64,000 nt of DNA, taken from Scenedesmus sp. ARA3 (taxonomy: Eukaryota > Chlorophyta > Chlorophyceae > Sphaeropleales > Scenedesmaceae). The notes beneath the pieces are model-generated. The model did not search any database, was not told the DNA's origin, and was given only the letters and a program-made list of their open reading frames with translations. Both the position numbers and the translations under genes were made by a program. Numbering within the stretch: the stretch's first letter is position 1; the number at the start of each line of letters is the position of its first letter. Below, in pieces: positions 17,113 to 57,800 of the stretch. The stretch covers positions 1 to 64,000 of the forward strand of contig RWJK01001422.1 in assembly GCA_004335835.1 (NCBI GenBank). Reading direction: 5' to 3'.

Positions 17113-20100
17113 TCAATTGACTGCAGCCACCACCTGCTCTGCTGCCACTGGCTGCTCAGGCTCATCAGCAGCAGCAGCTGCTGCCACTTGCTCCTCTTCT
17201 GCTTCTGCGCTGCTGTTGCTGGCTGCTGCTGGCTGCGAGGGTGGTGCTGCAGGGAGCTCGCTCCTGTCGTCCATGGTAGTCTCGGACATGGCCTTGCCGC
17301 TGCGGATGCTCTCAAAGCTGAAGCGCCTGGGCGTCTCCTTGGGGTGGTAGTGGCTGTTGGTGTCGTCGTTCATCATCTGGCAGAACTGCAGGCACAAAAA
17401 CGAGGCCACAGATGCAGCGCAAAGCAGAATGCAGATGTCAGACAACGGTCAACAGGTCAGCCACGCACAAGATGCCCCTTGGATCCTTGGGGTGGTAGTG
17501 GCTGTTGGTGTCGTCGTTCATCATCTGGCAGAACTGCGGGCACAAGATGTGCAGGGGCGGAAGTTGCAGCAGAGCACATGTGGTCAAACGGTGGTTAAAC
17601 GATGGTCAAACAAGTCAACAGTGCACAAATTTGCGGGCTGTGCACGCTGTCGGAATGCTCTGCTCCTACAGTCCCTGTGACACATGCGAGCAACACACAC
17701 GCACGCGCAGGAAAGAAAAACCAGGCAATGCAACGCCACGCCAAGTGCGCTTGCTCCCCAGGTTCCGTCCCGTCACCCTTGCGCACACACTCAAAAGCAA
17801 GACGTGTCCTTGAAAACATGTAACATCATCGCATCACCACACATATGCGCACCTCCTGGTAGGTCATCTTGCCGTCGTGCGCCTCGTCAATGCAGGAAGA
17901 CACCTCGCTCATCATCTCATCTGCCAGCTCCTTGGTGATGTGGTGCTCGCCCAGCAGCTGCTGCTGCAGGTTGAGCAGGTCGGCGCTGGTGATGAAGCCG
18001 TCGTGATCGTGGTCCAGCGCATCAAAGGAGCGGCGCAGCTGCAGAAAGAAAATTATACAACAGGCAAAGCAGTTCAGTAGGTGAGTATGGTGTTGGTGAG
18101 CGGGGTGGCTGGTGATGAAGCCGTCGTGGTCGTGGTCTAGCGCATCAAAGGAGCGGCGCAGCTGCAAAGAAAATAAGGCAAGCATCAGAACAACCCTTTT
18201 AGTTGAACAGGTTGGTGCAGGTGGGTGGGGTGGCTGGTGATGAAGCCGTCGTGGTCGTGGTCCAGCGCATCAAAAGAGCGGCGCAGCTGCAATGAAGAAA
18301 GGAACAAGCAGCAGCAGGTTAGATGCTTTGTATAGCTTTGAATGCATGCTGGTGATGAAGCCGTCATGGTCGTGGTCCAGCGCGTCAAAGGAGCGGCGCA
18401 GCTGAAAAAAGAAAGAAGCAAATGTGCAAACAATTCAGCTGGTGGGTATGGTTTTGGGTGGTGGGATGGATGGTGATGAAACCGTCGTGATCATGGTCCA
18501 GCGCATCAAAGGAGCGGCACAGCTGCAATGATTGAAATAAACAACAGCAGCAGCTTGAATGTTTTGTATGGCACTGAATTCAAGCTGGTGGTGAAGCAAT
18601 CATGATCGTGGTCCAGCGCATCAAAGGAACGGCGCAGCTGCAAGACGTTAGCAAAACAGTGAACAGCAGTTTGGTGATGTTGAAGATTGATGGTTTCAAG
18701 CTGGTGATGAAGCCGTCGTGACCGTGGTCCAGCGCATGGAAGGAGCGGCGCAGGTGCGGGCAGATCAGCACAATAAACAGTGAAAATAAGCAGGTTAGTT
18801 GGTTGCATTTTTGGTGATTGGAAGGTGGCTGGTGATGAAGCCGTCGTGATCGTGGTCCAGCGCATCAAAAAAGCGGCGCAGCTGCAGTGGCGAGAGATAG
18901 GAGAAAGCAAACAAGGTAAGAGAGGATCATTTGTGGTATGCTGGTGGTTGGTAAGGTGGTGAACAACCGTTGTATGTTGTTGCAGGAGCGCAGAAGGCCG
19001 GTGCAGCAGCCGCAGGGAACCACAGCGCTTCCAGCAGTGCAAAGCACAGCAGACAACACGCCTAGCCCGGCACTCACCGCGTCCTTGGTCTTGGTGTAGT
19101 TGCTGTTGGCCAGCATGGCAGCCAGGAACTCGTCCACGTCCACATAGCCCTCCCCGTACAGGTCACTCGCTGCAATCAGCTCCTCCAGGGCCTCGGGAGG
19201 GATCTCAGCAGCAAAGCCAGACTTGGCGAGCGCGTCCGTTGAGCGCAGCGCGTGTGTCAATTCGGCGGGCGTCAGGTGGCCGTCGCCGTCCTCGTCCATT
19301 GCGTAGAACGCTTCCTGCAAAGAGGCAAAAGAAGCGATCAAACGTTTGGTGGAACGACAGCAGGATGATGAGTTGAAAATGGCGAGCGCTGAAGACGTAA
19401 GTAAGACGTATGTAACACACCACAAATGACCACACAGCGCCGGCTGGCAAGCCAACCCCCGCACCTTGAGGCGCGTGATGTGCCTGTCTGTCACGATGTG
19501 GCACAGCAGCGACAGCGCCAGGCGCTTCATGCGGCTCATGCCAGCAAAGGCCTCCAGGCGCGCCACCACACGGCTCATGTTGCCCTCCAATAACAGCTGC
19601 TTAGTAACACAAAAGTTGTAGAAAAGCCAATGGAACACAGCACGCCCCATCGCGAGCAGACGCAACAAAGCAAAGCCCCGCAATTCCTCACAACCACGCA
19701 ACGCACACGTTGCACCTTGAGGCGCGTGATGTGCCTGTCGGTCACGATGTGGCACAGCAGCGACAGCGCCAGGCGCTTCATGCGGCTCATGCCTGCAAAG
19801 GCCTCCAGGCGCGCCACCATGTGGCTCATGTTGCCCTCCGGCAGCAGCTGCTTAGTGACACAAAAGTTGTAGAAAGCAAACAGAACACAGCACGCCCCGC
19901 CACGAGCAGACACAACAAAGCACAACCCGCAATTCCTCACAACCACGCAACCCACACGCCGCACCTTGAGGCGCGTGATGTGCCTGTCCGTCACCGTGTG
20001 GCACAGCAGCGACAGCGCCAGGCGCTTCATGCGGCTCATGCCTGCAAAGGCCTCCAGGCGTGCCACCACATGGCTCATGTTGCCCTCCGGCAGCAGAGAG

Positions 20101-20994
20101 GCCTGGCCATCCTCGCCAGCCTGGCTGAACCAGGGGTGCTCCAGCAGCTGCTGGCAGGTGGGGCGCACTGTGAAGTTTGACCAAAGTTTGACCGGAGTTT
20201 GACCGGAGTTTGACCGGCAGCAGAAGGCAGTAAGGATGGCAGTGGGGTGAGATACAGGTGTTGCAGGGTCTGCTGCTTGACCAGTCGCACTGCTGGGCGG
20301 AGTCAGTACAGTAACCAGAGCTGCTGCAGGGTAGCTGGGGAAGTCAAATGTTCGGTGCGGTGGCAGGCCTGAGTAGCCAGCTGCCTTCGGCTGTTGCCGT
20401 TGGCGAGCTGCCGCACTGCTGCTGTGAACCGGAGCTGCTGCACAAACCGCTGATTCACGATCCGGTGCTTGTCAGGAAGCTGCCAGCATGTAAAACTAGC
20501 AGCTCGAGCTCGAGATTAAGACCAACGGTAAATTGCTGCGCCCACTCACTTGTGACGTCCAGCTTGAGCATCTCCCTCACCAGCGCCTTGCCTGAGCAGC
20601 TGACGTGGCTCCATTCATCAGGAAACATCTTCACATGGCCTGTGCAGCAGCAGCAGCAGCAGCACGCAGAGAGCATCAGGCGCACAGCACTGGGATGTAC
20701 ATGAAAGCCATCCCAGGTGCAGTGCTGGGCCTGCATGGATGCTCCTGTAAGCAAGAGCTGTTGCACCTGCATGCAGAGGCTTCCTGCAAGGGGCCAAATG
20801 CTTGCGGTGTTGCAGTCGTTGCAGCATCCAGACAACATGCTGCACAACCACTAGCGCCGGCCCATGCATACATTGCACAGCACGCCCCTGTTCGATGCGG
20901 CCACATTGTGTGCAGCTGCTGCCGCTTTCCTGGACTAGGTCAGCCTCCTTGACATCCAACCCTCCACACAAACCTGTTTCAGCAGCGTGTAGTA

Positions 20995-21025
<31 letters not shown>

Positions 21026-22246
21026 GGCTGTTGCTGCAGCAGCGGCATCTCACCTGTATGCACTTTGGCCACGATGCCCTTGTCATTGTTTCTGATCAAA
21101 TCCTCCACCCACTCATCCTCAAACAAACCTGCTTTTCAGCAACCGCCGCTGCTGCTGTGGCGGCGGCGGCATCTCACCTGTGCGCACTTTGGCCACGATG
21201 TCCTCGTCATTCTTGCCGTTGAAGGGCGGCCGGCCAGACAGCAGGATGAAGAGCACCACACCTGCTGACCACACGTCAGCCTGCAGGTCGTAGTCCCGCC
21301 ACAGCACCTCCGGAGCCACGTAGTACGGCTGCAGACAGCAGTGAACCACACAGACATCACACGCAGAAATAACTCAGCAGCAAGGGACGGCAGGGACACC
21401 CGCAAGGCGTAGTGATTAGATGCAGCTCAAACCCAAAACTGGAATGCAACCACAGCTTCATCACCAAACCCAACGTCCAATACAGCGAGGACGCACAAGC
21501 GCTTTGCATAGATATAAGCTGGCGGTGTGACGTGAGCTGCGTTGCAATACGCACACGCATTGTGAAGGCTGCTGCTGTGCTGCTTCACTGCCTAGCACTG
21601 CTGCTACCGCCACAGCTGCTGTTCATTCTGCTGCCGCTACTTCTGCCGCTGCACTCACCGTGCCAAACTTCTTGCACAGGCGCTTGCCTGGCACGCAGAA
21701 GGTGCTGCAGCCGTAGTCAATGACCTTCAGCACAGGCTCCCTGTCGGTCTTCAGCAGCAGCAGGTTCTCGGGCTTGATGTCCCTGCAACGGCAGGTGCGG
21801 CGTCGGTAGCGCAGTGCGCAGACCACAGCAGCAAAGACATTAGCAGCCGCGCACCAACCGCGTGCTAAGCAGTAATTGATGCGAGATGCATAATTGGCTT
21901 GTGTGACGATGCAAGCATCCAGGGACAGGGCAGGATGAGGCAGTCGCAGCTGCAGTTGTGCATTGCGCCTGCAACCGGCACCCCCTTTCACACCCAAGAC
22001 CCACCTGTGGATCACGTGCTTGCTGTGCGCATGTGCCAGGAAGCTGATCAGCTGCTTGGCCTTGTTTGCTGCCATGGCCTCGGTCATGTGGCCACTTCGG
22101 ATAATCTGGTCAAACAGCTCTCCCCCGTTGCAGTGCTCCATGACCAGGTAGAAGTTGGTGCTGTCCTGCAGCACCTGCTGCAGCTGCACCATGTTGGGGT
22201 GGTCTGCCAGCAGCCGCATAATGGCCACCTCCTTCACAATGTCTGC

Positions 22247-29631: not shown

Positions 29632-32463
29632 ATGCAGCCTACACGAGTAGCAAAGCCACGGCCGAACTACTTCTATGGTGTGCTTGTAGTGGGCACTCCC
29701 ACACTAGCAGCCAGGCCACCTCCCGTAGCTGGAACTGACCAGGCTTGCTCTTGCAGATTACCGTGCATCGGTGTCTGAGAAGTTCATCAGGCGGGGGCTC
29801 TATGTGTGCTGTCGCAGTCTGCCAGCAGCAATCCTGCTGGCCATTGCAGCGTCTCTGGCGGTAAGCTGATACTACAACAGCTTTAATTGATTGATCAACA
29901 AGTACTGAAGTATTGTGCACGTCTAACGCGGTCTTGTTGTTGCCTTACAGCTGGAGCTGGGCAACATGCTGCGCACCGGTGAACTCATCAGGCTGTGGTC
30001 GGTGGCCAGCCAGACCGACCTCACGTTCAACCTGGTGAGGCCAAGTTTACAGCGGAACTCTAACAGCGAGGCACGCACCTTCTGCGTGCGTGCGTGCGGG
30101 ACGTAACGCCCTCTTATTGCACTCTTGGATGCTGCAGGTGACCGTGGTGCTCTCCAGCAGCGTGCTGCTGGCAGCTCTGCTGTCCTTCTTCCTCCTGCAG
30201 ACACGCCCAGTGTACCTGGTGGACTTTTCCTGCTATAAGCCACCTGACAGGTGTGCGCACAGCTGCAGCAGAGAACAGCAGCAGAGGCAGCAGCATTCTT
30301 GGATTGCAGCGCCATGCAGCTGTGGCATGCACATGATTGCGCAACAACAGCATTGCTCACATCTGCTTTCACATCTGCTTACAGCAATCAGTGCCATATG
30401 CAAGCAGAAAGGCTGCAAGCAGCGTGCATCGGCAGTAAACACATGTTTGTACTGCCTGGCAGCGGGTCAATGCACAGCCATGCAGCAGTGTGGCCAATTG
30501 TGCACTCTTGCCATGCCTACAGCATGAACTGCACTCGCCTTGCAGTGTTCTGTATGCAATTGAGCATCATGTGCTTGCACCTGTGCTGCATGTGCCTGTG
30601 CTGACTGCATCACTGCTTATGGTGTGCCCTGCGCCCGTGCTCGATACCACCATCTCTCATATCTCAACAAATAACACAGTTGGAAGACGCCAAGGCAGAT
30701 GTTTCATGAGTGCTCTGTGGCGTCTAAGGCAAGCCTGCTGCCACGTCGCGGTTTTTGAATTTCAAACACATGCTGTGTTGGCGCGTTGCATCTTGATGTC
30801 GCACTCAGGAGGGTCATCTAACGTTGCGCACGCCTGCTGCATGTGCTGTGTAAACTGCGCAGCTGGAAGTGGCCAAGGCAATGGCATGCGCACTGCACTG
30901 CTGCGTGCAAGGTGTGTAGTGCCTTGTGCTTGCCGCACACCAGCATTATCCCAGCAAGCATGTGCAGCAGCTGCTCATGCTGTATGGCCCTGGCAATTAG
31001 ATCTAAGAAGCAGCGGCACTAACGCACCCCAGCACAGCTGCGGGGTAGCAGCGTGCACGCCCGCTGTTCCCACAGACTGCTTGCAGGCAGACGCTTTCAA
31101 CAGCAGCAGCCATCATCATCAGCAGCAATTCCTGCAGCAGCAGCAGCTTCAGCAGCAGCAGCACGCCTGCAGGAGCAGCAGCAGCCAACATCTGGCACAC
31201 CTTTCACAGCAACAGCGGCAGCAGCAGCAGACACCGTAGTCTTTATCATGATGACTCTTCAGCTTCCAGCCACCATCGCATCGTCTTCTCCCTCGTGCCT
31301 TCCTCTCGCTAATTTTCAACTTCTGCATGCTCCTCCTCCCGCAGAAGTTCACACCGGAGAGCATTGACTTTCAGAGCAAGATCCTCGCGCGCAGCGGCCT
31401 GGGCGATGACACCTACCTGCCCCCGGGCCTGGCGCAGCAGCCGCCAGCAATTAGCATGAGCGATGCGCGCTGGGAGTTTGAGCAGGTGGGGCAGCAGTCG
31501 CCGTTATTGCTACGGCTTGATTGGTGATATGTTGATGGGCAGGAGTATGAGCAGGTGGGGCAGCAGGCTGCTAGGCAGTACAGGAGGCAGTACATATGCA
31601 ATAGATAGGCAGTACATGAGGCAGTACATGGGGGGGACAGCCGCCAGCAATCAGCATGAGCGATGCACGCTGGGAGTTTGAGCAGGTGGGTCGGGAAATT
31701 GGGAAACATAAGCAGGCTGCTAGGCAGCAGGCTGCTGATCAGTACACGAGGCAGTACATGGTGCAGTGCAGAGGTAGTTCATCAGGCTTGATATCATGCA
31801 GTACATGATGCAGTACATATTGGCAGCAGCAGCCGGCAATCAGCTTGAGCGATGCACGCTCGGAGTTTGAGCAGGTGGGGCAGCAGTGGCTGTCTTCATA
31901 TACACAATCAACGTAATGGCAGCAGACTAGAATGCAGCGGTGTGCGAGGCAGTAGGCTGGAAAGCAGCAGGCTGCTCAGCTGTTGGTGAGGCAGCCGTGT
32001 ACAAGGCAGCAGCACATGAAGCAGCAGCAAATGAGGCAGTGGTGATGCTAGACAAGGTTGTTGCTGCACGTGTCGAGTGCGAGGCCTGAGTGCAATGTTT
32101 TGGTTGCCCTGCAGCCACATAGATTGCTTGTGTGCACTCCTGCTGCGTGTAGCACCAAACCTGCATTTTACACTGCTGCTTTTGCTGCTGCTGCTGTGGC
32201 CGCTGCTGCTGCTGTCCTTGTTCACCCCAGGTGTGCTTCACTGCTGTGCGGGACGTACTGGCGAAGACGGGCGTGCACCCTCGCCAGATCGGCTGCGCGT
32301 GCTGTGCTCTGACCCTGCAATGACACATGCTGCTGCTGCTGCTGCTGCTGTCCTGAATCAACCCCAGGTGTGCTTCACTGCTGTGCGGGACGTGCTGGCG
32401 AAGACGGGCGTGCACCCTCGCCAGATCGGCTGCGCGTGCTGTGCTCTGACCCTGCAATGACAC

Positions 32464-32501
<38 letters not shown>

Positions 32502-35349
32502 CCTAATCAACCCCAGGTGTGCTTCACTGCTGTGCGGGACGTGCTGGCGAAGACGGGCGTGCACCCGCGCCAGATTGGCTGCGTGATTGTCAACTGCAGC
32601 CTGTTCAACCCCACGCCCAGCCTCAGCGCGATGATCATGAACCACTTCAAGATGAGCAGCAACGTCATCAACTACAACCTAGGAGGCATGGGCTGCTCAG
32701 GTGGGCTGGGTTTCTAGGTCACTACCACAGGATGGCATACCTGCTTAGACCAATATAATCATATTAGAGCAGCGCCACTTCAACATGAGCAGTTGTGTCA
32801 ACATGGGCTGCTGCTGTGCGGAGAAAGATCAAGCACCCGGCAGCTGGGCAGGTGTAGGAGTGCAATTGCAGCTCTGTCAATGGCGGTGTGTTTGGCGGTG
32901 TCAGCTTGCCAACTCACACACCGTGCTCTTGCACGGGCACCTTTGTTTGCATGCAGCCCCACCACACTCACCTACATTGTGTATGTCTGTGGTTTGCTGC
33001 TGCTGCTGCTGCTGCTGCCTCACTACTGTAACTGCAGCTGGCATCATCGCCATTGACCTGGCCCGCCAGATGCTGCAGATGCTGCCCAACACCTACGTGC
33101 TGGTGGTATCCACTGAGAACATCACCCAGAACTGGTACTTTGGCAACACCAAGTCCATGCTCATCCCCAACTGCCTGTTCAGGGTGGGAGGAGCAGCCAT
33201 GCTGCTGTCAAACAAGCGCGTGGAGTCATGGTGGGTTCACAACAAGCCAGGCACAGCTATCAATGCGCTGGATGGTTTGGCGTGTGTAGTGATGCACTTG
33301 CATCTGCAGCAAAGTGACCTCCCTCTTCTCACTGCTGTGTGCACGGCTCTGCACGTGGCTGCTGCGGTGTGTGCTGTTGCTGCCCCAGGCGTGCCAGCGT
33401 ACAGCCACCACGTGGTGCGCATACACCTGCTATGCCTCACCATTTTGCTTAGACAGCTCTGCACCGCTTGCATGCTGTCAACGTGCTTATTGCAGGCGTG
33501 CCAAGTACGAGCTGAAGCACGTGGTGCGCACGCACCTGGCCAACAATGACGCGGCCTTCAACTGCGTGGTGGAGCAGGAGGATGCAGAGGGTGTGAGGGG
33601 CGTGAAGCTGTCCAAGGAGCTCATGGCCATTGCAGGTGCGGCGTCACCGCTGTTATGCTGTTACTTTGGATTTGTGTTATATTGTCATGTCGGAAGTGAT
33701 GACGGGTGGTGGAGCAGGAGGATGCAGAGGGCGTGATGGGCGTGAAGCTGAGCAAGGAGCTCATGGCCATTGCAGGTGCGGCAACTTATGAGAGATAAAT
33801 TGGCTTCAACAGTTGGCGCAGTAGTGCGAAACAGCTTGGCCATGGCGGCTGGGTTTCCGAACTTCGCCTTCTCATGGTTTGTTGGTGCAACAGGGGAAAG
33901 AAACCCGCCCATGCTAAGCCCGCTCGCTTGCCCATCAGCGAGCAGATGCTTTCCACATGTCACTTGAATACTGTCGCATCTGTCATTTCTGTTGTTACTT
34001 TCAGGCGAGGCGCTCAAGGCCAACATCACCACACTGGGCCCGCTGGTGCTGCCCATCAGCGAGCAGCCCCCCCCCTAAGTTATGTCAACTCTGTCATAAC
34101 TGTCATTTTTGTTGTTACTTGTGCTGTCACTGGCAGGCGAGGCGTCAAGGCCAACATCACCACGCTGGGCCCGCTGGTGCTGCCCATAATAGAGTATACC
34201 CCACCATCACCACCACACGTTATATCAATTATGCCATAGTTGTTTTGTGTTGTTATATTTGTTGTCACTTTCAGGCGAGGCGCTCAAGGCCAACACCACC
34301 ACACTGGGCCCGCTGGTGCTGCCCATCAGCGAGCAGATGCTGTTTGCGCCCATGTTATATAAACTATGTCCTGACTGTTATGTTTGTTGTTACTTTCAGG
34401 CGAGGCGCTGAAGGCCAACATCACCACGCTGGGCCCGCTGGTGCTGCCCATCAGCGAGCAGATGCTGTTTGCGGCCAACCTGCTGGGCCGCAAGCTGCTG
34501 GGCAAGAAGAAGCTGCGGCCGTACATCCCAGACTTCAAGCTCGCTTTTGAGCACGTGTGCATCCACACAGGTGCGTGGACCGCGTGGCGTTGCATGGTTG
34601 ATGTCAGAGAGTGCAGCTGAAAGTGCTGTTGCTGTACTTTCATTGCATAACACACCTGGTTGCCAAACTAACAAGTATAAGATATGGTGAATCTTTGATT
34701 CAGCCTGCAAGAGCAACTTGCCGTCCTGACGCATGTCCATCTGCTTCTGTCTATGGCTGCGCACACTACTTTTGTGCACAGGCGGTCGCGGCGTGATCGA
34801 CGAGATCGAGAAGCAGCTGTGCCTAACGCCCGAGTTTGTGGACGCCAGCCGCGCCACGCTGTACCGCTACGGCAACATCAGCAGCAGCAGCATCTGGTGA
34901 GCAGCGGCGGCTCCTCCTGCATGATATGCATGATGTTAATTTCACAGTAACTTGTTATGAATGTCATCACTGGTACTGTCATAAGCAGGGGTGATGTGTG
35001 TGGTGTATCGTTCCTGCTGCTAGCTTGCCTCCAGACACTCGCATGCACGTCAGGGGCGGCAGCTCTCTGACAAGCTGCCCTCGCTTTGCTCTTCTGCTGC
35101 TGAGCCACACTCCAAAAGAAACACAAACCCCCTGCTCCTGCTGCTGCTGCTGCCAGGTATGTGCTGGCGTACATCGAGTCGATGAAGGGGGTGCGCAAGG
35201 GTGACAGGGTGTGGCAGCTGGGCTTTGGCAGCGGCTTCAAGTGCAACAGCGCTGTGTGGGCCGCCAACCGCCGCATCAGTGACCAGCACGCAGCCTGGGA
35301 CAGCTTTGACCACGACCAGATGGAAGATGACCTGGCGCAGAGCCTGTAG
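29632..35349 (+). CDS. 3-ketoacyl-CoA synthase (FAE1/KCS-type elongase)
   Basis: Twelve exons close in frame to 510 aa: 29632-29677, 29757-29860, 29951-30034, 30138-30250, 30680-30728, 31345-31485, 32517-32700, 33038-33230, 33496-33635, 34400-34570, 34782-34896 and 35157-35349. The protein condenses malonyl-CoA with an acyl-CoA in very-long-chain fatty acid elongation, normally in the ER membrane. Two hydrophobic segments sit near residues 30-50 and 80-100, followed by the KCS signature [10 protein letters not shown]. The catalytic set is C239 in GGMGCSAG, H407 in HVCIHTGG and N440 in [11 protein letters not shown]. The C-to-H and H-to-N spacings (168 and 33) match what I recall for plant FAE1. 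Exon 5 is only 49 nt and its intron begins with GC (AAG|GCAAGC). Several introns contain copies of exon edges. Confidence 0.92.
31543..31875 (+). repeat. Extra copies of KCS exon 6 donor edge
   Basis: The end of exon 6 ([20 protein letters not shown]) is repeated at about 31640-31686 and 31830-31875. A shorter remnant (GAGTATGAGCAGGTGGGG) is at about 31543. All retain the CAG|GTGGG donor context. Spacing is 190-200 bp, larger than in the other arrays. Confidence 0.82.
32231..32460 (+). repeat. Two extra copies of KCS exon 7 acceptor edge
   Basis: The start of exon 7 ([22 protein letters not shown]), with its CCCCAG acceptor and upstream CTG tract, appears at 32231 and 32367 before the genuine exon at 32517. 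Each copy stays open to a TGCTCTGACCCTGCAATGAC tail in place of the genuine exon continuation. Confidence 0.9.
33700..33776 (+). repeat. Extra copy of KCS exon 9 donor edge
   Basis: The last ~70 nt of exon 9 ([23 protein letters not shown]) with its CAG|GTGCGG donor is repeated 141 bp downstream inside the intron. Confidence 0.88.
34004..34338 (+). repeat. Three extra copies of KCS exon 10 acceptor edge
   Basis: Copies of [21 protein letters not shown] with a TTTCAG or GGCAG acceptor begin at about 34004, 34137 and 34275, before the full exon at 34400. Each copy ends within ~60 nt. Spacing is 125-138 bp. One copy has lost a base and is out of frame. Confidence 0.9.
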
Positions 35350-41617: not shown

Positions 41618-43141
41618 CCGCTGACTCCTCATCCAGGCCTTCATTGTCTGCCTCCATCACTGCACTGAGCGTGCGCCTGTTCAGCAGAGAGGGGAACTGC
41701 GCTGCTGCCCAGGACTCCTCCTGTACTCCGAACAACACAGCACAGCACAGCACGACATCAGCACAGCACAGCGCAGCACGGCGCAGCGAAGTCAGATGAC
41801 AAGAGGCATATGACAACACCTTCCAGCTGTGCATTACTTTGACACTGCTCTGTCAAGGGAAACATGGGCGTTCAGAGGCAAGCTGACGGCAGCTGGGCAG
41901 TACACGCAGTATGCAAACCAGGGCCAAGGCGGCTAACAAACATGCTGGTTGCTTGGAACGACATCTGATGACCTGTTGCATGCGGTACTAATACATAAGG
42001 CTGTCAAGCAGGTGCACATGGCAGCAATCACCTGGTACTCAGGATGATGCACACCATGCTGCTGGTACGTGCTGCTGCTGCTGCTGCTGCTGCCTGCAGG
42101 AGGCATAACGTCCAGGAAGTCAAACTCGTCAGCAGCAAAGCCGCTGTGGTGAGGGGCCAAGCTGCTGCTGCTGTTGCTGGGTGCGCTGCTCGAGCAGCGA
42201 GCTGAAGCTGCCTGTATGCAGTTGAAGCAGCAGCAGTAGCAGTAAAAGCAGGCGTGTTCCTTCCACTCTGGAACAGCCAAGCAGCATGGTTTATGCTGTC
42301 GTTGAAATAGCGACTTATAGCCGCATGTTCAGCCACACTGCTGCTCAACTGGAGCAACAGCGATGCGATGGCTACATTGACTGCACTGCACATCAGCCGT
42401 CTTGCATTTTCACTATTAAGTTCAAGCCAGCAGCTTCACCCATGCTGCCGCTCACCTTGAGGCCCTCGCTTTCAAACATGGAAGCCACCTGCTGCTGCTC
42501 CTGCTCAGCCGCATCAGCTGCACTGTGGCCCTACTTCAAATGCCTAATTCCTATGCCGCAGCTCCAGCCATGCTGCTGCTCACCTTGAGACCCTCTCCCT
42601 CAAACATGGAGGCCAACTGTGGCGTGTGTGGCGTGGGCGCTGCAGCAGCCTCGTCCACGCTGCTCTCCGAGAAGCAGCACTCGGACGGCAGCATGCAGGC
42701 AAAGTCTGGCAGCTCAAGCGACATCAGGCCTAGGTGCCCTCCTGCAGGCTGCCGCAAGCCGCTTGTTCCGCTACTGCTACTGCTACTGCTGTTTCCTGGC
42801 AAGCTGCTACTGCTGCCGTTTGCTGAGCCGTATGATATGCTGCTGGCTCCGCCGTCGCTGCTGCAACATTTAAAGCTGCCCCATGCTGCTGCAATGTCTC
42901 CTGCAGCAGCTTCCTGGCCAGGTAGTGAGGCATTCAAGCTGCAGGATCCGCCGCTGCTGCTGCTGCTGCTGCTGTTGCCGCAGATACTGCTTGCTGCACC
43001 CTCAAGCAAGCTTGGCGTTCTGTGGTGCCTTGGTGGGGTTGAGGGCTGGCTTCCACTGCCGGTAGGGGACAGCTCAAGGTCAAACGATGCTCCATCCAGG
43101 GGGAATGACCCCAAGTTTATGCTGGTCAAACTGTTTGTCAT
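38152..43141 (-). CDS. ELMO-domain protein (ELMOD-like)
   Basis: Seven exons in coding order: 43141-42584, 42211-42032, 41720-40992, 40768-40411, 40213-40042, 39157-38993 and 38305-38152. They give 771 aa. The first ~490 residues are low-complexity Ser, Gln, Ala and Glu with no recognised domain. The ELMO domain occupies about residues 530-750. It includes SLAKTGLNDASEVHTRILQ, the signature WGAIGFQGDDPATDLRGVG, LLQLLYLHHHSPVAAQKLYQ, FPLAVVSLNIS, and NCFYCGAFYEFYARW near the end. The Arg in TDLRGVG aligns with the Arg proposed to stimulate GTP hydrolysis by Arf/Arl GTPases in ELMOD proteins. A role as an Arf/Arl-family GAP is therefore inferred from family knowledge. The long N-terminus is unusual, since small ELMODs are about 300 aa. 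Three introns contain exon-edge copies. Confidence 0.88.
38770..38945 (-). repeat. Two extra copies of ELMO exon 6 donor edge
   Basis: Copies of the exon 6 end (AANCFYCGAFYEFYAR) lie at about 38895-38945 and, more diverged, 38770-38820. The shared GCGCCGCAGT block is spaced 107 and 116 bp from the genuine exon and between copies. Confidence 0.85.
39285..39590 (-). repeat. Three extra copies of ELMO exon 6 acceptor edge
   Basis: The exon 6 start (ARQEFPLAVVS) with its TGCAG acceptor is repeated at about 39288, 39419 and 39556. Spacing is 131-147 bp from the genuine exon edge at 39157. Confidence 0.88.
39780..40041 (-). repeat. Two extra copies of ELMO exon 5 donor edge, exact 130-bp period
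   Basis: The exon 5 end (GLLQLLYLTHHSPVAAQKLYQLSIR-like) and its GTGAGG donor are repeated twice downstream in the intron at exactly 130-bp spacing, with few differences. These are the youngest-looking copies in the window. Confidence 0.92.
42453..42520 (-). repeat. Extra copy of ELMO exon 1 donor edge
   Basis: A copy of the exon 1 end (ASMFESEGLK|GTGAGC, genuine ASMFEGEGLK) lies 128 bp into the intron. Confidence 0.85.
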
Positions 43142-43761: not shown

Positions 43762-46700
43762 ATGAACACCATGCTGCTGCGCCACCACACCTTGCGTAGA
43801 GCTATCATATGCGGGTACAGCAATCAACAAAGGACCTACGGCACGAACAGGACAGGCGGCAGGGGAGGGTCTGAACCTCGCCAGTATCAGCAGCAACAGC
43901 GCCGGCGGCAGCAGCAGCAATGGGATGATGATGGCTACTCTTCATACAACAGCTCTAGACCGCCGCGTCGCCGCGTTGAAAAAGCTCCAAAGCAGCTGCT
44001 CAGGCGCCCTGGCCAGCAACACACGTACTTGGTGTCTTGCCACCCTGGCCTAGAACAGGTCAGCACCAGCTCTACAGTCCTGAGCTGCTCGATTACTGCG
44101 TCATGTGCCGCGCTGCAGCACCCCAGACATTTTGCGAGCACACTAGCAAGCGTATAGAGGATCGCATACACATGCTTGCTACTGTTTCCATCCATGCCAT
44201 GTCTGCACACCAACAGCCTTCAAAAAATCATCCGCTCCTGATGTTTCCTGCAGGTGACAGCGGATGAGCTGCAGCAGCCTGGCCTGGAGGCAGCGCAGGG
44301 CGTTGAGGTCATAGCACCAGGCAGGGTGGCCTTCTCGTGAGTTTCCTGCAAGCAGCAGCTGCTGCGTCTTGATTGCTGTTGATTGTTTCCCTTGGTGTTG
44401 GCATGCTGCCACTGAAGTCATAGCACCAGGCAGGGTGGTCTTCCCGTGAGTGTCCTGCAAGCAGCAGCTGCTGCCTCCCCATTGCTGTTGATGAACATTC
44501 CTTTTGGTGTGGAATGCCAGCACGGGTGTCCCCGCAGCATGTGCTGCATCACAACAAACAACTCATTTGTCTCTGACCTGCAATGTAACCAGCAATGTTC
44601 AGATCAACACTTTTGCATCAACACGAGTTTGACATTCATGCCATGTTGCTGCCACTACTGCTGCTGATGATGCCGCTGCGGTTGCAGGTCTGACTCTTTG
44701 GCAGGCGGCTATGCAGCGGCGCTGTGCCTGCGATCAGCCACGCGTGTGCTGCAGATCATACACGAGGAAGACCTGAACCCAGACAGGGCAGCAGGAGACA
44801 CGGTAAATGATACGCCAGTCATCTTCATGCTGTCCGCAGTTGCCTCTCAGCGTTGGGTTGTGCTGAGAGCTCATGTCTTTGAATACCAACAGTGCGAGCA
44901 GCTGCCAGTGCTTGGCAAGCTCAGCAGTGCTGAAAAGCACAGCGTGAGCGTGTGTGTGTTGCCACCCTGCTTGCCATCCAAGCACAACCAGCAATGCTGC
45001 GCAGCCAGCACACTGCTACACATCGACATAAACACCATGCACCTGCACTTGACGGTACCCACTGAAAGCATTCAAGCCTAAGCTCTGGTGCTGGTGCTTG
45101 CCTGGCTGCAGGTGTATGAAGCCACTCGTGCAGGCGCACCCTGGCAGCAGCTGCTGCAGCCTGGGCAGACGCTAGGGGTGCACTGCATGCACTTCTATGG
45201 CAACAGCAACATAACAAACAGCCAGCTGGTTGCGCGGCGCGTGCGGGACGCCGTCTGCGACGCAGTGAGGGATGCACGGTGGGTGGCAGCAGCGGCAGCA
45301 GGAACAGCAGCAGCAGCAGCAGGTACAGCAGCGGTTTGGTTGTGCTGACACAGTCAAGGATGACACACACTGCAACCTTCTGTACTGTCACAATACGCTG
45401 GATTGGTATGCAGCCCAGCAGGATCACCTGCATATGCAATCATTGCACCCGCCTAGTGCCCCTAGGGACTGTCAATCTACTGTTGCTCCGTGCTTTTGGG
45501 TGATTTATTTGCTTTGGTATGGCTGCAGGGGCGTGCGGCCCGCTCCTCCTGATGGCGCGCCAGACCTGCCGCTGGTGTTCCAGATGCTCGATGACCGGCT
45601 GCAGCTGTTCAGGGACCTGGGGGGCGGCAGCCTGCACAGGTGTGCCATGTTGCAGATGGTTTCAGGACAGATATGAGCCTGCATGAGCACATCGTGGTGC
45701 ATGACTGGATGCAGCTGTTCAGGGACCTTGGAGGTGGCAGCCTACACAGGTGCGCTGCTGCACGCTGCTGCATGTGCAGATGTGTCTAGCGCAGTACTCA
45801 GTGCTGTGCAGCTCATTGAGAAGTGACTCTGGCTCTGCTGTGGCTACATGGCCTCAAGATCAGGCAGAGAAGGGCACATTCCATTTCATTTTTTCATGAA
45901 ACTACACATAAAACTAGATGTTGCAGTCGTTGACTTTGTGCTGCCTTTGCTGGTGGTTGTGTACTGCCTGCAGGCGCGGATACAGGTCCGGTGCTGCAAT
46001 GCACAAAGCTGCGCTCAACGAGGCAGCTGCGGCGGGGCTGCTGCTGCTGGCGGGATGGCAGCAGCACAGTCAGCAGCAGGGTGAGCAGTCTTCTGCAGCT
46101 GCCGCTGTGTTGCCAAAGGCGCTGCTCGGCAGCATGAAGCGCGCTGCATTGCTCATGGTCAGCAGTGGTGCTTGCAAGAATCATGACTGCATGTTGAACT
46201 CAAGTATGTGCTTCTACATGGCTGCAGCTGTAGTGGCACTTGACAGCAGCAACCTTGAACACCGTCTTCAACAGTAACCGCATCCATCACATCCATCGTG
46301 CTGATGTTTCCCTACCTTCTTATTGCTTGCAGGCGTTGTGTTGGCCGACCCAATGTGCGGTTCAGGCACGCTGCTGATTGAAGCGGCGCTCATCGCCACA
46401 GGCGCCGCGCCCGGCCTGCTGCGCAGCAGGTGGCCCTTTGAGGACTGGCACGACCACGACTCGCAGGTGGGTGCGTTGCAGTATTTTTGAACTGAAAATG
46501 GACCGTGTGTCAGTTTGATGCGCCGTAGCCGATGCATCAAGCAAGGCATGGCACGTGGCACGACCACGGCTCGCAGGCGGGTGCGCCATAATCAATTGTA
46601 AGCTTGACAGATCAAGCGTGGGCATTGATGCGTGGTAGGCAAATAGGCTCAAGTGGGGATATGCTTAAATAGTAAGCGTGGCCCTGAACGCCACCATGTT

Positions 46701-48511
46701 TTAGAGGTGGGTGGCGTTGGCCAGACAAGATCGCCAGAAGTGACAATCTGCATGCACACATCAGACTACTTATCTAACCCAGGTCGAGCCTACTCCAGTG
46801 GTTGACCACAGCACATCATGCTAAACGACACACTGAGCAACACTGCTTGCAGGTGCGCGCGGAGTGGCGTGCAGTGCGGCAGGCAGCGCAGCAGCGAGCT
46901 GAGCAGGGCTGGGCTGACTGGGAGGCCAGGGGCGGGCAGCTGCTGGGCAATGACCTGCATGAGGTGAGCCTTGCAGGGATCAGTCATATGAACTGCTTGT
47001 GTTTTTAAGATCCACAAGTGTGTTTCGTGTGTATTGATTGGTGGCTGGATGGCGGGCCAGGGGCGGGCAGCTGCTGGGCAGCGACTTGCATGAGGTGAGC
47101 GGTTGCTACAACGCCATTCAATAAATAAGACGAACAAATCTAGGACACGCTGCATATGAAGTGTGTTGCATAGCGGCAGGTGCAGTGTGTCAGAAAGTGC
47201 ATTGTTGGTGGCTGATTGAGTGGCCAGGGGTGGGCAGCTGCTGGGCAATGACCTGCATGAGGTGAGGGCTTGGGGCAAGGGGCTGCTGGGATATGCCCAT
47301 TACTTATTGCTGTAGTAGATTTGTGACATGTTTCTCATCATCAGATGGCTGGGTGTCAGGTAGGCGCTATGCTGGCCTGCGTTGCACACTTGGGTTTACT
47401 TGGTGTTGCCACGAGTACGCATGGGGCAAACGGCATCGTGCACAAATGACCGCCGCTGTTCTTGCTGTGTGTTGCTGTCTGCTGCCACCTGACTGTTCCG
47501 TGTTTTTGGCAGGGTGCGCTGCGGCTAGCACATCAGTCTGCAGAGGCAGCAGGGGTGTCTGACCTCATCAGGTTGAGCAACCGCCCCTGCGGTAACTGGC
47601 AGCCTGCGGCAACCCCCAAACTTGTTGTCTGCAACCCCCCCTGGGGCAGACGATTGATGGGTGAAGAGCAGAACAGCGACAGCAGCAGAAGCAGCAGCAG
47701 CAGCAGCAGCAGGGGTAGAGACGGGTGGGGCAGGGATGCTGGGAGCGGACGCGACAGCAGCAGGGGCAGCCAGCAGCAGTGGGAAGATGAGGGTGCATAT
47801 GACAATGATGATGATGAAGAGCTGGCAGAGACGTGGCAGCAGCTGGCAAGCTTCCTCAAGCAGCAGTGCCCAGGTGAGCTGGCCTGCTGCTGGAGTGGGC
47901 TTGAAAGGCCTTGACTTCATGCTTGTTTTGTGTCTAAAGATAGCATCAGCTGGCAAGCTTCCTCAAGCAGCAGTGCGCAGGTGGGCTGGCATGCTGGCTG
48001 CTGCTGCAGCGTTTTAGGTGTAGGCTTACGCTTGCGTACTAGAGGCGTAATGGCAGCAACACTTGAACATGATTGTGCATGTACTGCTCTGTCGTACAGT
48101 AAAGGCGCGCCAGAGCAGGCTTGCATATACCTCTTGCTGCTGCTGAGAGCGGTAGTCGCTCGATGCCAGCATGCTGCGGCTGGGCTGCTTCTATATTCAC
48201 CTGCAGGCGCTGAGGCCTGGGTGTTATTGGGCAGCCGGGACATCACGCAGCACCCTCCACTGAGATTCAGTCACATCTTATGTCGACGCAATGCTGCTGC
48301 ATGCTGTGCTCCTGCAGGAGCTGAGGCGTGGGTGTTATCGGGCAGCCGGGACGTCACGCAGCATCTAGGTATGCGCTCCAGCAAGAAGCGCTCTCTGAGC
48401 ATCGGAGGCGTGAAGACTGCTTGGCTCAAGTACGAAGTGCGCGGGCAGCAGCAGCAGCAGGAGTGGCAGCAGGAGCGGGTAGCAGCGCGGAGGCAGGGCC
48501 AGGAGGGCTGA
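43762..48511 (+). CDS. THUMP-domain RNA methyltransferase (RlmL-like)
   Basis: Ten exons close in frame to 559 aa: 43762-44058, 44254-44336, 44688-44802, 45112-45278, 45529-45639, 45974-46080, 46333-46466, 46853-46963, 47513-47873 and 48318-48511. The N-terminus is basic and hydroxylated ([20 protein letters not shown]), suggesting organelle import. A THUMP-type region follows: [36 protein letters not shown], and [13 protein letters not shown]. The catalytic half has RRGYRSGA, the SAM-binding motif [18 protein letters not shown], and the target-base motif [11 protein letters not shown]. This matches the RlmL/UPF0020 family, which makes N2-methylguanosine in large-subunit rRNA. An organellar rRNA target is inference. 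A Ser/Gly/Gln-rich insert follows NPPWG. Five or more introns carry exon-edge copies, mostly at about 110-bp spacing. Confidence 0.88.
44416..44500 (+). repeat. Extra copy of methyltransferase exon 2 donor edge
   Basis: The exon 2 end ([11 protein letters not shown]) with GTGAGT donor and the following CAAGCAGCAGCTGCTGC intron start is duplicated at 109-bp spacing. Confidence 0.88.
45711..45750 (+). repeat. Extra copy of methyltransferase exon 5 donor edge
   Basis: The exon 5 end ([14 protein letters not shown]) and donor recur 110 bp downstream in the intron. Confidence 0.87.
46557..46585 (+). repeat. Extra copy of methyltransferase exon 7 donor edge
   Basis: GGCACGACCACG(A/G)CTCGCAG recurs 111 bp downstream. 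In the copy the donor GTGGGT has become GCGGGT. Confidence 0.85.
47058..47270 (+). repeat. Two extra copies of methyltransferase exon 8 donor edge
   Basis: The exon 8 end ([18 protein letters not shown]) is repeated at about 47060 and 47227, spacing 131 and 167 bp. Both copies keep the GAG|GTGAG donor. Confidence 0.88.
47948..48250 (+). repeat. Copies of methyltransferase exon 9 donor and exon 10 acceptor edges
   Basis: The exon 9 end ([10 protein letters not shown]) recurs at 47948, spacing 107 bp, with GTGGGC as donor. The exon 10 start ([16 protein letters not shown] with CCTGCAG acceptor) occurs at about 48202, 110 bp before the genuine exon. One intron thus has an echo at each end. Confidence 0.88.
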
Positions 48512-50607: not shown

Positions 50608-52304
50608 ATGTCGCAGGCAGCCAAGCGCAAGGCAGTGGCCAGCATCCGGCTGCTGATCAATGCCGGGGCAGCAAAGCCGGCGCCCCCTGTGGGCCCTGCG
50701 CTGGGTCAGGCTGGGCTGAACATCATGGCCTTCTGCAAGGAGTTCAACGCAAAGACAGCAGACTTTAAGGACGTGCCGCTGCGTGTACTGATCAAGGTGA
50801 GGGTTGAGGGTAGTGGTGACTTTTTGTGTTGTGTTGGTATGCTGAACATCATGGCCTTCTGCAAGGAGTTCAACGCAAAGACAGCAGACTTTAAAGACGT
50901 GCCGCTGCGTGTACTGATCAAGGTGAGGGTAGCCGGGAATTTCTGTGTTGTGTTGGTGGGCTGAACATCTTGGCCTTCTGCAAGGAGTTCAATGCAANNN
51001 NNNNNNNNNNNNNNNNNNNNNNNNNNNNNNNNNNNNNNNNNNNNNNNNNNNNNNNNNNNNNNNNNNNNNNNNNNNNNNNNNNNNNNNNNNNNNNNNNNNN
51101 NNNNNNNNNNNNNNNNNNNNNNNNNNNNNNNNNNNNNNNNNNNNNNNNGTGTTGTGTTGGTGGGCTGAACATCTTGGCCTTCTGCAAGGAGTTCAATGCA
51201 AAGACAGCAGATTTCAAAGACGTGCCACTGCGTGTACTGATCAAGGTGAGGTTTGTGTCGATTGTTCGTGTTGTGTTGGTGGGCTGAACATCATGGCTTT
51301 CTGCAAGGATTCAATGCAAAGACAGCAGACGTCAAGGGCGTGCCGCTGCGCGTACTCATCAAGGTGAGGGTAGTGGGGAATCTCCGCGTGGTGTTGATGT
51401 TTTGAACATCATGGCGTTCTGCAAGGAGTTCAATGCAAAGACAGCAGAGTTCAAGGACGTGCCGCTGCGCGTACTCATCAAGGTGGGCCGCATCACGCAG
51501 ATACTTGTTTAACAAAGTTAACATTGGGTATGTTGGTTGTGGACAGATCTTTGTAGGCCCTCACGCTCAGTTGTTGCGCTCGGTCTGCAGCGTGCCTGCA
51601 TTGAGGCAGGTATGGGTTGCAGCGAGTGGCAGGCAAATGCTTCGAGCTTACCAAACAAAACAGACATTCACCACTGTGCAGCAGGCAGCTTCTGTGATCC
51701 TTGTACAGATGACAGCAGCGGGCGTTGACCCGCACATAATCAAAACATTGTCATCCAACATGTTATGATGTGTTATGTAACAGGTGTACGAGGACAAGAG
51801 CTACGATTGGACACTCAAGGGCCCCCCAAGCAGCTGGTACATCAAGCAGGCGACAGGCCTGGCGCGCGGCGCTGACCGGACAGGGCACGAGACAGTCGGC
51901 ACCATCAGCCTGAAACACTTGTACGAAATCGCCAAGGTATGTGGTCTGTGTATGTGTTCTCCCAATGGAAATGGTTCCCTTCGTGCCTTTAGATGCAATG
52001 GTATGGATAAATGGTGCAGATAGGAACTATGTCAAAGCACAGCTGAACACCAGTTGCCAACGGTGCTGCTGCTGCTGCTGCCATCATGCACTGCCTGCAC
52101 GTCAAGGTGCCGGATATGCGAGGCATGCCGCTGCGGGGCGTGGTCAAGTGCCTGACGTCACTCCTGCTGCTGCTGCTGCTGTTACACCTGCAGGTGAAAG
52201 CTCCAGACATGCCAGGCATGTCGCTGCGAGGCGTCGTCAAGTGCCTCATGTCGCAATGCCAGTCCATGGGTGTGAGAGTAGTGGAGCGGCCGGAGGATGC
52301 ATGA
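50608..52304 (+). CDS. Mitochondrial large-subunit ribosomal protein uL11
   Basis: The exons used here are 50608-50796, 51784-51936 and 52194-52304, giving 150 aa. The N-terminal domain has the uL11 signature [42 protein letters not shown] and LKHLYEIAK in exon 2 resemble mitochondrial rather than plastid L11, which usually has a KTPP segment. ATG 50608 is the first in-frame ATG after a stop at 50530. No long presequence is visible. The protein sits at the GTPase-associated centre of the ribosome. At least five diverged copies of the exon 1 end fill the first intron, so the exact exon 1 used by the mRNA cannot be decided from DNA alone. An assembly gap interrupts this array. Confidence 0.9.
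50835..51485 (+). repeat. Array of uL11m exon 1 donor edge copies (5 or more extra)
   Basis: A unit of about 119 bp holds [27 protein letters not shown], the AAG|GTGAGG donor and a GTGTTGTGTTGGTGGG spacer. Copies begin near 50715 (exon 1), 50842, 50961, 51165, 51284 and 51402. Copies carry small changes and one (near 51300) has lost a base. Copy number is a minimum because of the gap. Confidence 0.93.
50998..51148. other. Assembly gap (151 N)
   Basis: A run of N inside the tandem array. The flanking copies are near-identical, so the gap most likely reflects unresolved repeat units. Confidence 0.97.
52100..52160 (+). repeat. Extra copy of uL11m exon 3 acceptor edge
   Basis: The exon 3 start ([18 protein letters not shown]) is preceded about 90-95 bp upstream by a copy reading [18 protein letters not shown]. 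The preceding bases in the copy read TCAAG. Confidence 0.85.
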
Positions 52305-54598: not shown

Positions 54599-54603
54599 GT
54601 TAC
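54599..54603 (-). terminator. Possible eS6 polyadenylation signal TGTAA
   Basis: TGTAA on the minus strand about 275 bp beyond the eS6 stop. It is plausible for a green alga but a weak match on its own. Confidence 0.3.
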
Positions 54604-54878: not shown

Positions 54879-57800
54879 TTACTCCTTGGAGGCCTGGCTG
54901 GCCATGCGCATGGCGCGCTTCTTGGCCAGGGACTCAGAACGGCGCTCACGCTGCTCCTTGAGCCTCTGCGGTTGAAAAAAGAGCAGCAGCAGCAGGTTGT
55001 GTTGGTGATAAGACAGCATTTGAATTGAGAAGAGCATGATGAACATGATGAGCAATGTGGCGCTCACGCTGCTCCTTCAGCCTCTGCGGTTACCAATTGA
55101 CATGCGACACAGAGCAGCAGCAGCAGCAGGGTTTGTCAGCAAAGGTCATCAGCCAAAATCACTATGCTATGCGGCGCTCACGCTGCTCTTTGAGCCTCTC
55201 CGAATGTACTATCGCACCAAAATTGCCACCCAGCATCATGGTTTATCACACCAGATTCCGGCACTCCTAATTGCTTTATCATTGCTTTATCTGATTCTTT
55301 CTTTTAACCCATTTGCAATCCATATCGAAGCCGCACCTGCACCAGCAGCTTGTGGTACTCGGCGGCCTCTGTGCGGCTCTTCTCGTGCTTGGCCTTCTTG
55401 ACGGCGGCCTTCCTGCGCTTGCGCTGCAGCGTCTCTGGGGTCACCAGGCGCTGGATCTTGGGCGCCTTGGAGTGCTTCTTGCCGTTGGACTCAAAGGTGC
55501 GGCGGTAGGTGTTCACGTACTTGCGCACGTCGTCGTCCTTGGTCAGGTTGAACAGCTTGCGGATCTGCGATGGGTGACATAAGGCACCAGCAGCAACAGC
55601 ATGGAAGGTGAGCAGGCCGGCGATACAAAACAATGTCCGTCTCGCGGAGGGCAGTCTGCATACAACACACTGTTGGCAGCCGGACACGCAGAGTCACAAT
55701 CCAGTAAGAAAATTCAAAGGCAAAAAGGAACAACAGACTCCCGCGCACCTTGCTGGCGCGCTTGGGGCCGCGCATGCGGGGCTTCTCCTCATCAGTGAGG
55801 CCTGGCAGCTCCTTCTCGCCCTTCTTCACGATGACCAGGTTGAGCACCGACAGGTCGGGGCTCACAATGCAGCCGCGCACGCTCTTCCTGCGGCGCTCGC
55901 CGTTGCGGCGGCCGTGGCCGCGGAAGCACTGGTCTCCGGGGGCCATCAGCAGCTGCACGCGGCCGTTGGTGAGCACACCCTGCTTCATGGGGAAACCCTG
56001 GGAAAGCATGAAAACAAGGCGGTGGGGGCAGAAGCAGCAGCAGCAGCAGCACATGGTCAGAATTAAGGTCGCGGCGAGCGCGCCCAGGGAAACCCGATTG
56101 GGACCCTAGGGGAGCGTAAACAGACATAGTGGGGAGACAGTGACAGCAATTGCAACAGAGTTGATGCCATGCTATTGTGGTGGCTGCTGATTCCTGCTTG
56201 ATTGGAAACCCTAACCCTACCCTAAACATGCCCTAAACATGCTTGATTGGAAACCCTAACCCTACCCTAAACATGCCCTACTTGAACATGCTCACTGATG
56301 CAAGCCTACAATCAAGTGGCCCGTGCACAAAGTAACAGGGACGTGCATCACTTTGGCAGCACCGTCTGCTGCGCTGCTACCATGCCGCTGCTCGCGGTAT
56401 GTTTCGCTGGCGCTCCTGGTATGTGCAGTTCATCCATACATGTAAAGCCAAAAAATGTGCTTATTATCAGCAAAGCAGCAGCATGGCGGCCATGCCACAA
56501 GCGGCAGCAAAACACCACGCATTGCACATGCTGCTGCTGCTGCTGCTGCGGTGGAGGGGACTGAAGCTAAGTCGAGGCTCTGCGATTGACAGGACAGCTC
56601 TGCAGCAGAGGCGTCTGTTTTGCCATGCAGCACAAACTGTGCTACCCGCGCAAACAGGTGCAGTGCAGCGGAGCCATCAAAGCAACTGCTGCCCCTAAAC
56701 AGCTGCCTAGCTATCCTTCGCATGCCATGCCATTATGCATTCTGAAGCTACTACAGTCTGCACAACATTTGAATGCCACCAAGGCACATCGCATCAGCAC
56801 ATTGCTGCAAAGATTGCCTGTCCTGCTTGCACGCAGACGCTTGTTGTGTTGTAAGGCTGTTGCTATCAGAGTCCACCAGTCAGCAGTTCAGGCATTTTCA
56901 GCTGCTGCGTTGCTTGCCCGTTGCTTGCTGGCTGCATAGCTGCATCTGCTGAGCTAGCTCTAGTTGGCTCAGCAGGTGCAGCTATGCAGCCAGCACAACG
57001 CTCATCTCTCCAGACTACACACATCGCCATTTCTTTCTCGGGCCTGAATCCACTTGCCCCTGTCCGCTGAATTTATCAATCTGCAACTCCTCGACAGCCG
57101 TCCCACAGGCACAGCACAGGTTGCTTCCTAGCATGCTCGCCACACCATGTTAGCTGACCTGTCTGCTCCAGCAAGTGCGACACAACCTTAATTCCTTGGT
57201 TCACCAAAAGATCCGTTGGTGCCCTTGATCATTCCTTGATGGTGTGATACAAAATAACAAGTAACACTGTGTTACTTCTCACGCCCGCACCTGCTTGTCC
57301 TGGCCTCCCATGATCTTGAACACGTAGCCCTTGAACTCCTCACCCAGCACATCTCCCTCCACCTCGGCAGCCAGGCGCCTACGTTATAACACATTTCAAA
57401 CAGCGGCAGAACGCACGACAGATGGCAGCGGAGGGTCAAACTCGGCTCTAGCGATGCTAGGCGTCAAACTACGCATGCCGTGTGTTGCCATGCTGCTGGT
57501 TGCACTGCCAAAACCTAAGCAAGGTGCAGGCCAAAGCAGCAGCACCACCTGCATGGTGGCACTGCCCCAGGCCAGCCCCGGCTGCTGCTGCTGCTGCTGC
57601 AAGCTGATTGTCGTGTCTGCTGCTTCTGTCGTGACATGCCTGGCACTGCCATGCCCCACAACTACTGCTGCAGCGCCCGCAAGGCACACTGCACTGCGGT
57701 GTGTCCCCAACTGCGGCACCGCTGTAGGCATGGTGTTGCCTCTGCGCATCTGCCAGCACATTGACGCTGAAAACGCCACTGCTGCAGCTCCAGCATAGGC

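Follow-up and report, generated by a model that had tools for sequence, protein, structure and literature searches.

Single duplications across an exon-intron boundary, and intron gain by tandem duplication, are already known (PMC4974935, PMC3443670, PMC2891723). In PMC4974935, a single tandem duplication across an intron-exon boundary made a new intron in the potato RdRp gene, and the internal gene duplications of Gao and Lynch 2009, cited there, likewise copied intragenic segments including splice sites. The published model of intron gain by tandem duplication (Hellsten 2011; PMC3443670) likewise involves a short intragenic duplication that multiplies splice sites, but it needs an exonic AGGT that gives both sites of the new intron. 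Introner elements (PMC9860276) also add intron sequence across a genome; they are dispersed copies of one element, whereas the spacers described below share only short words between loci. The subject here is the first 64,000 nucleotides of contig RWJK01001422.1 of the green alga Scenedesmus sp. ARA3 (assembly GCA_004335835.1), hereafter the window, in which existing intron ends are repeated: introns of six genes hold tandem copies, called echoes, of the adjoining exon edge together with its splice site. In contrast to the potato gene, the alga has many such events, and the annotated proteins that were checked gain no sequence from them.

Zhuo, in 2007, reportedly described human introns derived from tandem arrays, again as duplicated intragenic segments including splice sites; to our knowledge, neither a period of about 120 bp nor slow change of unused exon copies was described there or by Gao and Lynch in 2009. 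No genome in which tandem exon-edge arrays with slowly evolving echoes are common at intron ends was reported among the matches listed (at most 20 of up to 1,878, as titles and abstract starts, with subscription literature mostly outside their scope), nor were such arrays reported there in Scenedesmaceae. Intron growth and the origin of alternative splice sites are usually argued from single events. Here a small genome offers many datable events of steady size (101 in 305 kb), each with an internal control in the exon and intron parts of its unit. In an echo the exon part changes more slowly than the intron sequence duplicated alongside it, and simple decay does not explain the difference.

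Arrays were called in the window and 25 sampled stretches of the same genome (305,478 bases, 20,803 of them N), all from one assembly of 87.3 Mb in 1567 contigs, by BLASTN of each stretch against itself (offset at most 450 bp, matches of 30 or more aligned bases, low complexity masked). Exons came from a purpose-built hidden Markov model (HMM) that combined codon usage, begun from general starting values, with splice models and was refined on strong exons; it took the place of a self-trained order-4 model that had drifted into CAG repeats. The strongest exons have a third-position GC content of 0.86, donors of the form CAG-GTG(A/C)G and acceptors of the form (T/C)GCAG-G, the hyphen marking the exon edge. 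A coding score of at least 8 defined the 134 confident exons of the sample. Exons are short (median 124 bp), and they were left out when arrays covered at least 90% of them for the coverage profile, more than 85% for the synonymous count, and at least 70% for the strict intron count, which also omitted introns with N.

The 101 arrays have a median period of 123 bp (10-90% range 93-188); 81 lie within 80-160 bp, 3 below 80 and 17 above 160. This is a real period peak, and it bears out the frequent ~120-bp tandem duplication that a first-pass annotation of the window had proposed. Compared with shuffled positions over the 305-kb sample, 42 of the 101 arrays touch a confident exon versus 17.7 +/- 3.6 after rotation within loci, and 0 of 300 rotations reached 42. 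That annotation had also named the pattern that would speak against a link with exons, an equal frequency in intergenic DNA with no period peak, and this was not seen: array density per 10 kb falls from 10.0 within 100 bp of an exon to 6.2 at 100-300 bp and 2.5-4.1 at 300-2500 bp (middle bins, some of which contain exons missed by the HMM, such as those of the methyltransferase), then to 1.5 and finally 0.54 beyond 4 kb.

Within the window, self-comparison and Tandem Repeats Finder (TRF) located echoes at 19-20 edges in six genes (CDPK 4, KCS 3-4, ELMO 4, RlmL-like 6, uL11m 1, eS6 1), in agreement with the at least eighteen intron ends claimed earlier. A tripled CDPK exon (2 extra copies, 19465-20096) is counted as one edge. 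The arrays are as follows.

17336..17545, minus strand: CDPK last-exon acceptor (~17385) with 1 echo; period 148; exon part changed at 0/50 bases, intron part matched at 68/98
17985..18889, minus strand: CDPK acceptor array made up of the functional edge (18038) and 7 echoes, which repeat the first 54 exon bases; spacing 115-128
19461..20096, minus strand: CDPK 132-bp exon (44 codons, in frame) in three copies, each with its own introns; period ~250
21021..21214, minus strand: CDPK kinase-exon donor (21178) with 1 echo; period 124
31434..31893, plus strand: KCS donor (31485) with 2 echoes, offset from the functional copy by 200 and 389
32183..32583, plus strand: KCS three-copy array; period 136-149
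33566..33782, plus strand: KCS donor (33635) with 1 echo; period 140
33929..34477, plus strand: KCS acceptor array made up of the functional edge (34400) and 3 echoes
38767..39054, minus strand: ELMO-gene donor (38993) echoes; period 107-116
39125..39577, minus strand: ELMO-gene acceptor (39157) echoes; period 132-147
39773..40124, minus strand: ELMO-domain exon donor (40099) with 2 echoes, a young array of 2.7 copies; period 130, whole unit 95% identical
42430..42619, minus strand: ELMO-gene donor echo at an exon outside the confident set; period 128
44304..44492, plus strand: RlmL-like methyltransferase donor (44336) echo; period 109
45591..45755, plus strand: methyltransferase donor (45639) echo; period 110; exon-part changes synonymous in 4/6
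46446..46585, plus strand: methyltransferase donor (46466) echo; period 110; GT of the echo changed to GC
46912..47272, plus strand: methyltransferase donor (46963) with 2 echoes, the second with an in-frame stop near the match edge
47836..47996, plus strand: methyltransferase donor (47873) echo; period 107
48200..48363, plus strand: methyltransferase acceptor (48318) echo; period 111
50712..51485, plus strand: uL11m donor array made up of the functional edge (50796) and 5 echoes, one of them interrupted by N; spacing 118-126
54940..55202, minus strand: eS6 last-exon acceptor (54968) with 2 echoes; periods 118 and 114

The spacings measured at five methyltransferase junctions (109, 110, 110, 107 and 111 bp) reproduce the 107-111 bp range read from the sequence at first sight. 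Echoes occur on both sides of exons, again as described, with 33 donor and 29 acceptor rows; one acceptor row is an artefact of a stretch end and was left out of the splice-dinucleotide count. The view that they are not assembly duplicates also stands. Such duplicates are unlikely because the copies are diverged, and a query with the CDPK array against the 87.3-Mb assembly returned its own place only. In that array TRF gave 80% matching at 236 bp, the distance between alternate copies, versus 72% at 125 bp, a pattern of the kind that unequal exchange may have left. The uL11m array holds an N run at 50998-51148, perhaps an unclosed or collapsed repeat, which makes its copy number uncertain.

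Comparison with proteins places the echoes of three genes outside the coding sequence. Gene names in the window are consistent with Pfam or homologues. The joined two-exon eS6 peptide is 99% identical to Tetradesmus obliquus OEZ86_014122 over 95% of the query, and mapping that protein back to the window gives five segments, 98.7-100% identical. For CDPK, the protein OEZ86_014127 matches at 98.8-100% over cleanly matched exons and at lower identity where matches enter introns or repeat copies. For the methyltransferase, identity to OEZ85_013866 is 87% across 76% of the query and 73-100% in the main exon segments. These matches indicate that the window derives from T. obliquus or a near relation of it. 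Most CDPK and eS6 edges of the HMM agree with this mapping within a few bases, which also shows that the first CDPK exon was split and several methyltransferase exons were missed. The T. obliquus CDPK protein has one copy of an 18-residue segment that is present eight times in the window DNA (one functional copy and seven echoes), and one copy of the 44-codon segment, of which the window has three. In the eS6 and methyltransferase proteins, too, each echoed segment occurs once. Since the annotated proteins hold a single copy of each segment, the echoes are intron in these three genes, and in all three of them it is the copy joined to the remainder of its exon that is used. The tripled 44-codon CDPK exon (19465-20096), of which the annotated T. 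obliquus protein has one copy, may be a case of mutually exclusive or silent exons.

Echo units span existing exon-intron boundaries. The earlier statement that copies keep their AG or GT was sound: the splice dinucleotide is intact in 56 of 61 echoes at 32 confident-exon edges. Cassette mini-exons were considered and rejected, as the printed echo blocks have no splice site on their inner side. A search for splice motifs at block edges was uninformative when either copy could carry the motif (32/46 versus 27.4 +/- 3.2 at random), and the count for both copies (22 versus 2.9) has no fair control since the copies are alike.

The youngest arrays are contiguous head-to-tail copies of exon plus intron, as boundary-spanning internal tandem duplications are, and they are nearly identical throughout (mismatches at 0/42 exon and 2/54 intron positions in one, 1/47 and 4/83 in another). 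In older arrays the spacers between conserved blocks, mostly 50-90 bp long, look unrelated or weakly related; of 16 chosen cases, 10 keep a weak homology on their intron side (z>=2.2). Over all scored rows, intron homology exceeds that of shuffles in 37 of 44 (z>2). Because young arrays are alike in both parts and most scored rows keep intron homology, whole-unit tandem duplication is the likely and well-supported origin in most cases. The introner pattern of similar copies in the introns of many genes was found neither for 16 spacers nor for the CDPK array. Those 16 spacers, compared with the 305 kb, gave only 15-30 base matches between loci, which rules out an introner or other mobile spacer for them, and Rfam gave no match at gathering thresholds.

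The two parts of the copied unit change at different rates, which the first-pass annotation had not anticipated. Across 45 edge pairs, which were chosen by exon similarity and represented by the best-matching echo where there were several, a choice that counts against the contrast, the mean difference is 6.8% in the exon part and 28.7% in the intron part. A neutral simulation passed through the same filter predicts an exon difference of 13.0% (90 simulated pairs) where the intron difference is 0.25-0.42, versus 6.9% observed in 18 pairs (p=2.5e-5). Expressed as a rate relative to neutral, 1.0 is rejected (p=2.5e-5), 0.5 is rejected (p=1.5e-4) and 0.25 fits (p=0.18); the observed table for this test held 34 of the 45 pairs, omitting those with wider offsets and the second entry of one event but keeping two offsets near 250. 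As the intron difference goes from 0.1 to 0.6, the exon difference plateaus at 6-10% (31/34 rows). Echo-to-echo comparison is cleaner because neither copy is the functional exon, and in seven multi-copy arrays the exon parts of echoes differ by 4.0-13.1% and the intron parts by 29-48%, with shuffled introns at 36-50%. At either end of the CDPK blocks, identity drops from about 0.9 to 0.5 over no more than 10 bp.

The changes that do accumulate have a coding character. In 3,027 aligned bases from 61 echoes at 32 edges there are 166 distinct changes, distributed over codon positions 1, 2 and 3 as 44, 29 and 93. Synonymous changes make up 92/166 (55%) and none creates a stop. The neutral synonymous expectation, using the spectrum of non-exon duplications, is 25%; a lenient bound of about 40%, an estimate that allows for the functional copy's own synonymous changes, is also exceeded (p=4e-5).

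These observations lead to a reading that is tentatively favored, in which ~120-bp duplication is genome-wide and its boundary-spanning products persist through short-tract conversion with the functional exon. Short segments, mostly 90-150 bp, would be tandemly duplicated often in Tetradesmus nuclear DNA, at rates roughly even between introns and intergenic sequence; arrays that touch no exon number 1.28 per 10 kb inside introns versus 0.94 far from exons (p=0.58). Duplications within exons would presumably be removed by selection, and those confined to introns would be neutral and fade beyond recognition. Boundary-spanning duplications would be tolerated, as the spliceosome would keep the exon-contiguous copy (the first donor or last acceptor) and the others would leave as intron. 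The exon part of an echo would then stay like the functional exon, most likely by frequent short-tract gene conversion or template switching, and echoes with bad changes would be purged since they can be copied back into that exon. The intron part, having no such anchor, would diverge, giving conserved blocks of exon edge and splice site between spacers. Slow synonymous and nonsynonymous change, sharp borders and the 6-10% plateau are together the traces to be expected of short-tract conversion between exon and echo. A stronger form of this proposal, in which very frequent conversion in tracts <80 bp keeps discarded exon-edge copies in step and places unused intron under coding-like selection, is possible but on balance doubtful. 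The duplications themselves may arise from break repair. Fill-in of staggered breaks by CST and Pol alpha-primase with end joining (NHEJ, nonhomologous end joining) is a candidate source, as it makes repeat-independent short tandem duplications (PMC8355091), with overhangs of 43-50 bases named there. Young two-copy arrays, whose junctions would bear on this, are few in the sample.

An unlikely alternative is that echoes are neutral, with even duplication and purging in exons, and that the contrast between parts comes from one drifting exon copy, fast indel-rich introns and detection bias. Where the whole unit aligns, the ratio of intron to exon change is indeed near 2, with 87/1287 (6.8%) in exon parts and 7.2% in intron parts, or about 15% once self-aligned rows are removed; even placement with slow echoes also predicts about 60% edge-touching arrays, near the 22/30 counted below. 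Yet a drifting functional copy has no part in the difference between two echoes, 4-13% in exon and 29-48% in intron parts; the simulation with the same filter yields too much exon change (p=2.5e-5), and a synonymous excess in echo changes is not what neutral decay predicts. The echoes could instead be functional, with splice sites that are used or serve as decoys and an exon part under direct selection, partly as coding sequence. Retention of GT or AG in 56/61 and 55% synonymous changes with no stops among 166 would fit, but the echoes have no counterpart in the T. obliquus proteins checked, and in the printed arrays each echo has a single splice site, on one side. Many spacings are not divisible by three, a stop occurs in one echo and frameshifts or lost splice sites in others, and splice dinucleotides are retained no better than the exon part. 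This explanation is quite improbable.

Copying of the exon edge alone has about as little to commend it. Here repair or template switching would insert an exon edge and splice site with filler, and the intron parts would never have been homologous. Blocks often stop a few bases beyond the splice site and several spacers are unlike their flanks (33566-33782), as such copying would predict; young arrays, however, duplicate the intron part too, and 37/44 pairs keep intron homology, some acceptor scores among them perhaps inflated by polypyrimidine tracts.

Several observations weigh against the favored reading. The exons rest on the authors' own gene model rather than on RNA, and all exon-based counts depend on it. 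Retention of splice dinucleotides does not exceed that of the exon part (56 versus 54 expected), and the five of 61 that are not intact include one that may be misaligned. In multi-echo arrays alone the synonymous share is 34/68, a weak excess over the 40% bound (p=0.06), and the lack of stops is only mildly telling, as about 3% of neutral changes make stops and 3-5 would be expected. Echoes do decay: the 61 copies contain ten gaps, one uL11m copy is frameshifted, some splice sites are lost, and one echo has an in-frame stop near the match edge. Indels inflate the echo-echo intron difference in at least two arrays (uL11m and that of locus L019), whose intron parts are visibly related. Sharp block borders and an exon plateau are seen, but no conversion tract is demonstrated. 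Finally, loci differ in array number beyond chance (chi2 45.6, 25 df) and 6 of 26 have no array, where an even rate predicts otherwise. Three ~10-kb stretches (L009, L013 and L023), with 4, 8 and 7 confident exons, have zero arrays.

The placement of arrays within introns can largely be accounted for by the persistence of their exon parts. The 88 introns between confident exons hold 35 arrays, 29 of which touch an exon edge versus 14.5 under uniform placement; two of the six others (51149 and 55052) belong to edge arrays. In the strict count of 68 introns, 22/30 touch an edge versus 39.8% simulated (p=2e-4). Uniform placement with echo exon parts evolving at a quarter of the neutral rate gives 59.8% edge-touching, and against this expectation of 60% the strict excess is non-significant (p=0.09), a further point against the favored reading. 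Longer persistence of echo exon parts can thus explain much of the excess, an edge hotspot is not clearly needed, and a pure edge hotspot was set aside after the slow-echo simulation. With five arrays containing a confident but array-covered exon reclassified, the strict count becomes 27/30, which exceeds 60% (p=3e-4). Array coverage is 13-18% from the donor edge to 400 bp out and 7-16% on the acceptor side; an early reading of flat coverage across introns was superseded by the array-level counts.

The idea that only boundary-spanning or intronic duplications survive selection is plausible but unproved. Boundary-spanning copies are abundant; the exons are short, and arrays wholly inside one exon number none in the sample versus 0.18 expected. 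Coverage is zero more than 100-120 bp inside exons, where positions are few and ten array-covered exons had already been dropped. In exons of at least 150 bp the middle is array-covered in 1/43; mid-exon coverage overall, 8/124, is not clearly below the 11.4 +/- 3.2 of rotation, with those ten exons dropped beforehand, and this counts against purging.

Introns with an array have a median length of 694 bp (n=27) versus 329 bp without (n=61), the array itself being part of the difference. Introns of T. obliquus average 462 bp; for four other green algae the means are 230, 302, 284 and 270 bp (PMC5966456). If the stronger form of the conversion proposal is true, exon edges stored at intron ends genome-wide would be interchangeable with the working ones, and this reservoir would account for the length of T. 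obliquus introns. The arrays bring three questions within reach of a test: the cause of the ~120-bp size, the means by which the spliceosome finds the exon-contiguous copy where as many as eight sites are nearly identical, and a possible link, through short-tract conversion, between unused intron copies and selection on coding sequence. They are also a warning to gene predictors and assemblers, as echo copies resemble exons and the uL11m array contains an N run.

Other repeats in the window are of different kinds. Blocks within 741-12069 recur at 5.9-kb and 7.8-kb offsets with 70-90% identity, apparently three tandem paralogues, and this region has no ~120-bp arrays. It includes a 67-bp inverted repeat (5586-5652 and 6087-6153, 97% identity, ~0.5 kb apart), perhaps the ends of a small transposon. 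An eS6 intron carries two perfect 45-bp copies at 56195-56280 (1.9 copies by TRF) with telomere-like CCCTAAA words. Three 11-bp tandem arrays found by TRF (17580-17611, 20174-20217 and 35353-35416) have a common GGTCAAA / TTTGACC core, and two of them align at 88% in self-comparison, suggesting a possible dispersed minisatellite.

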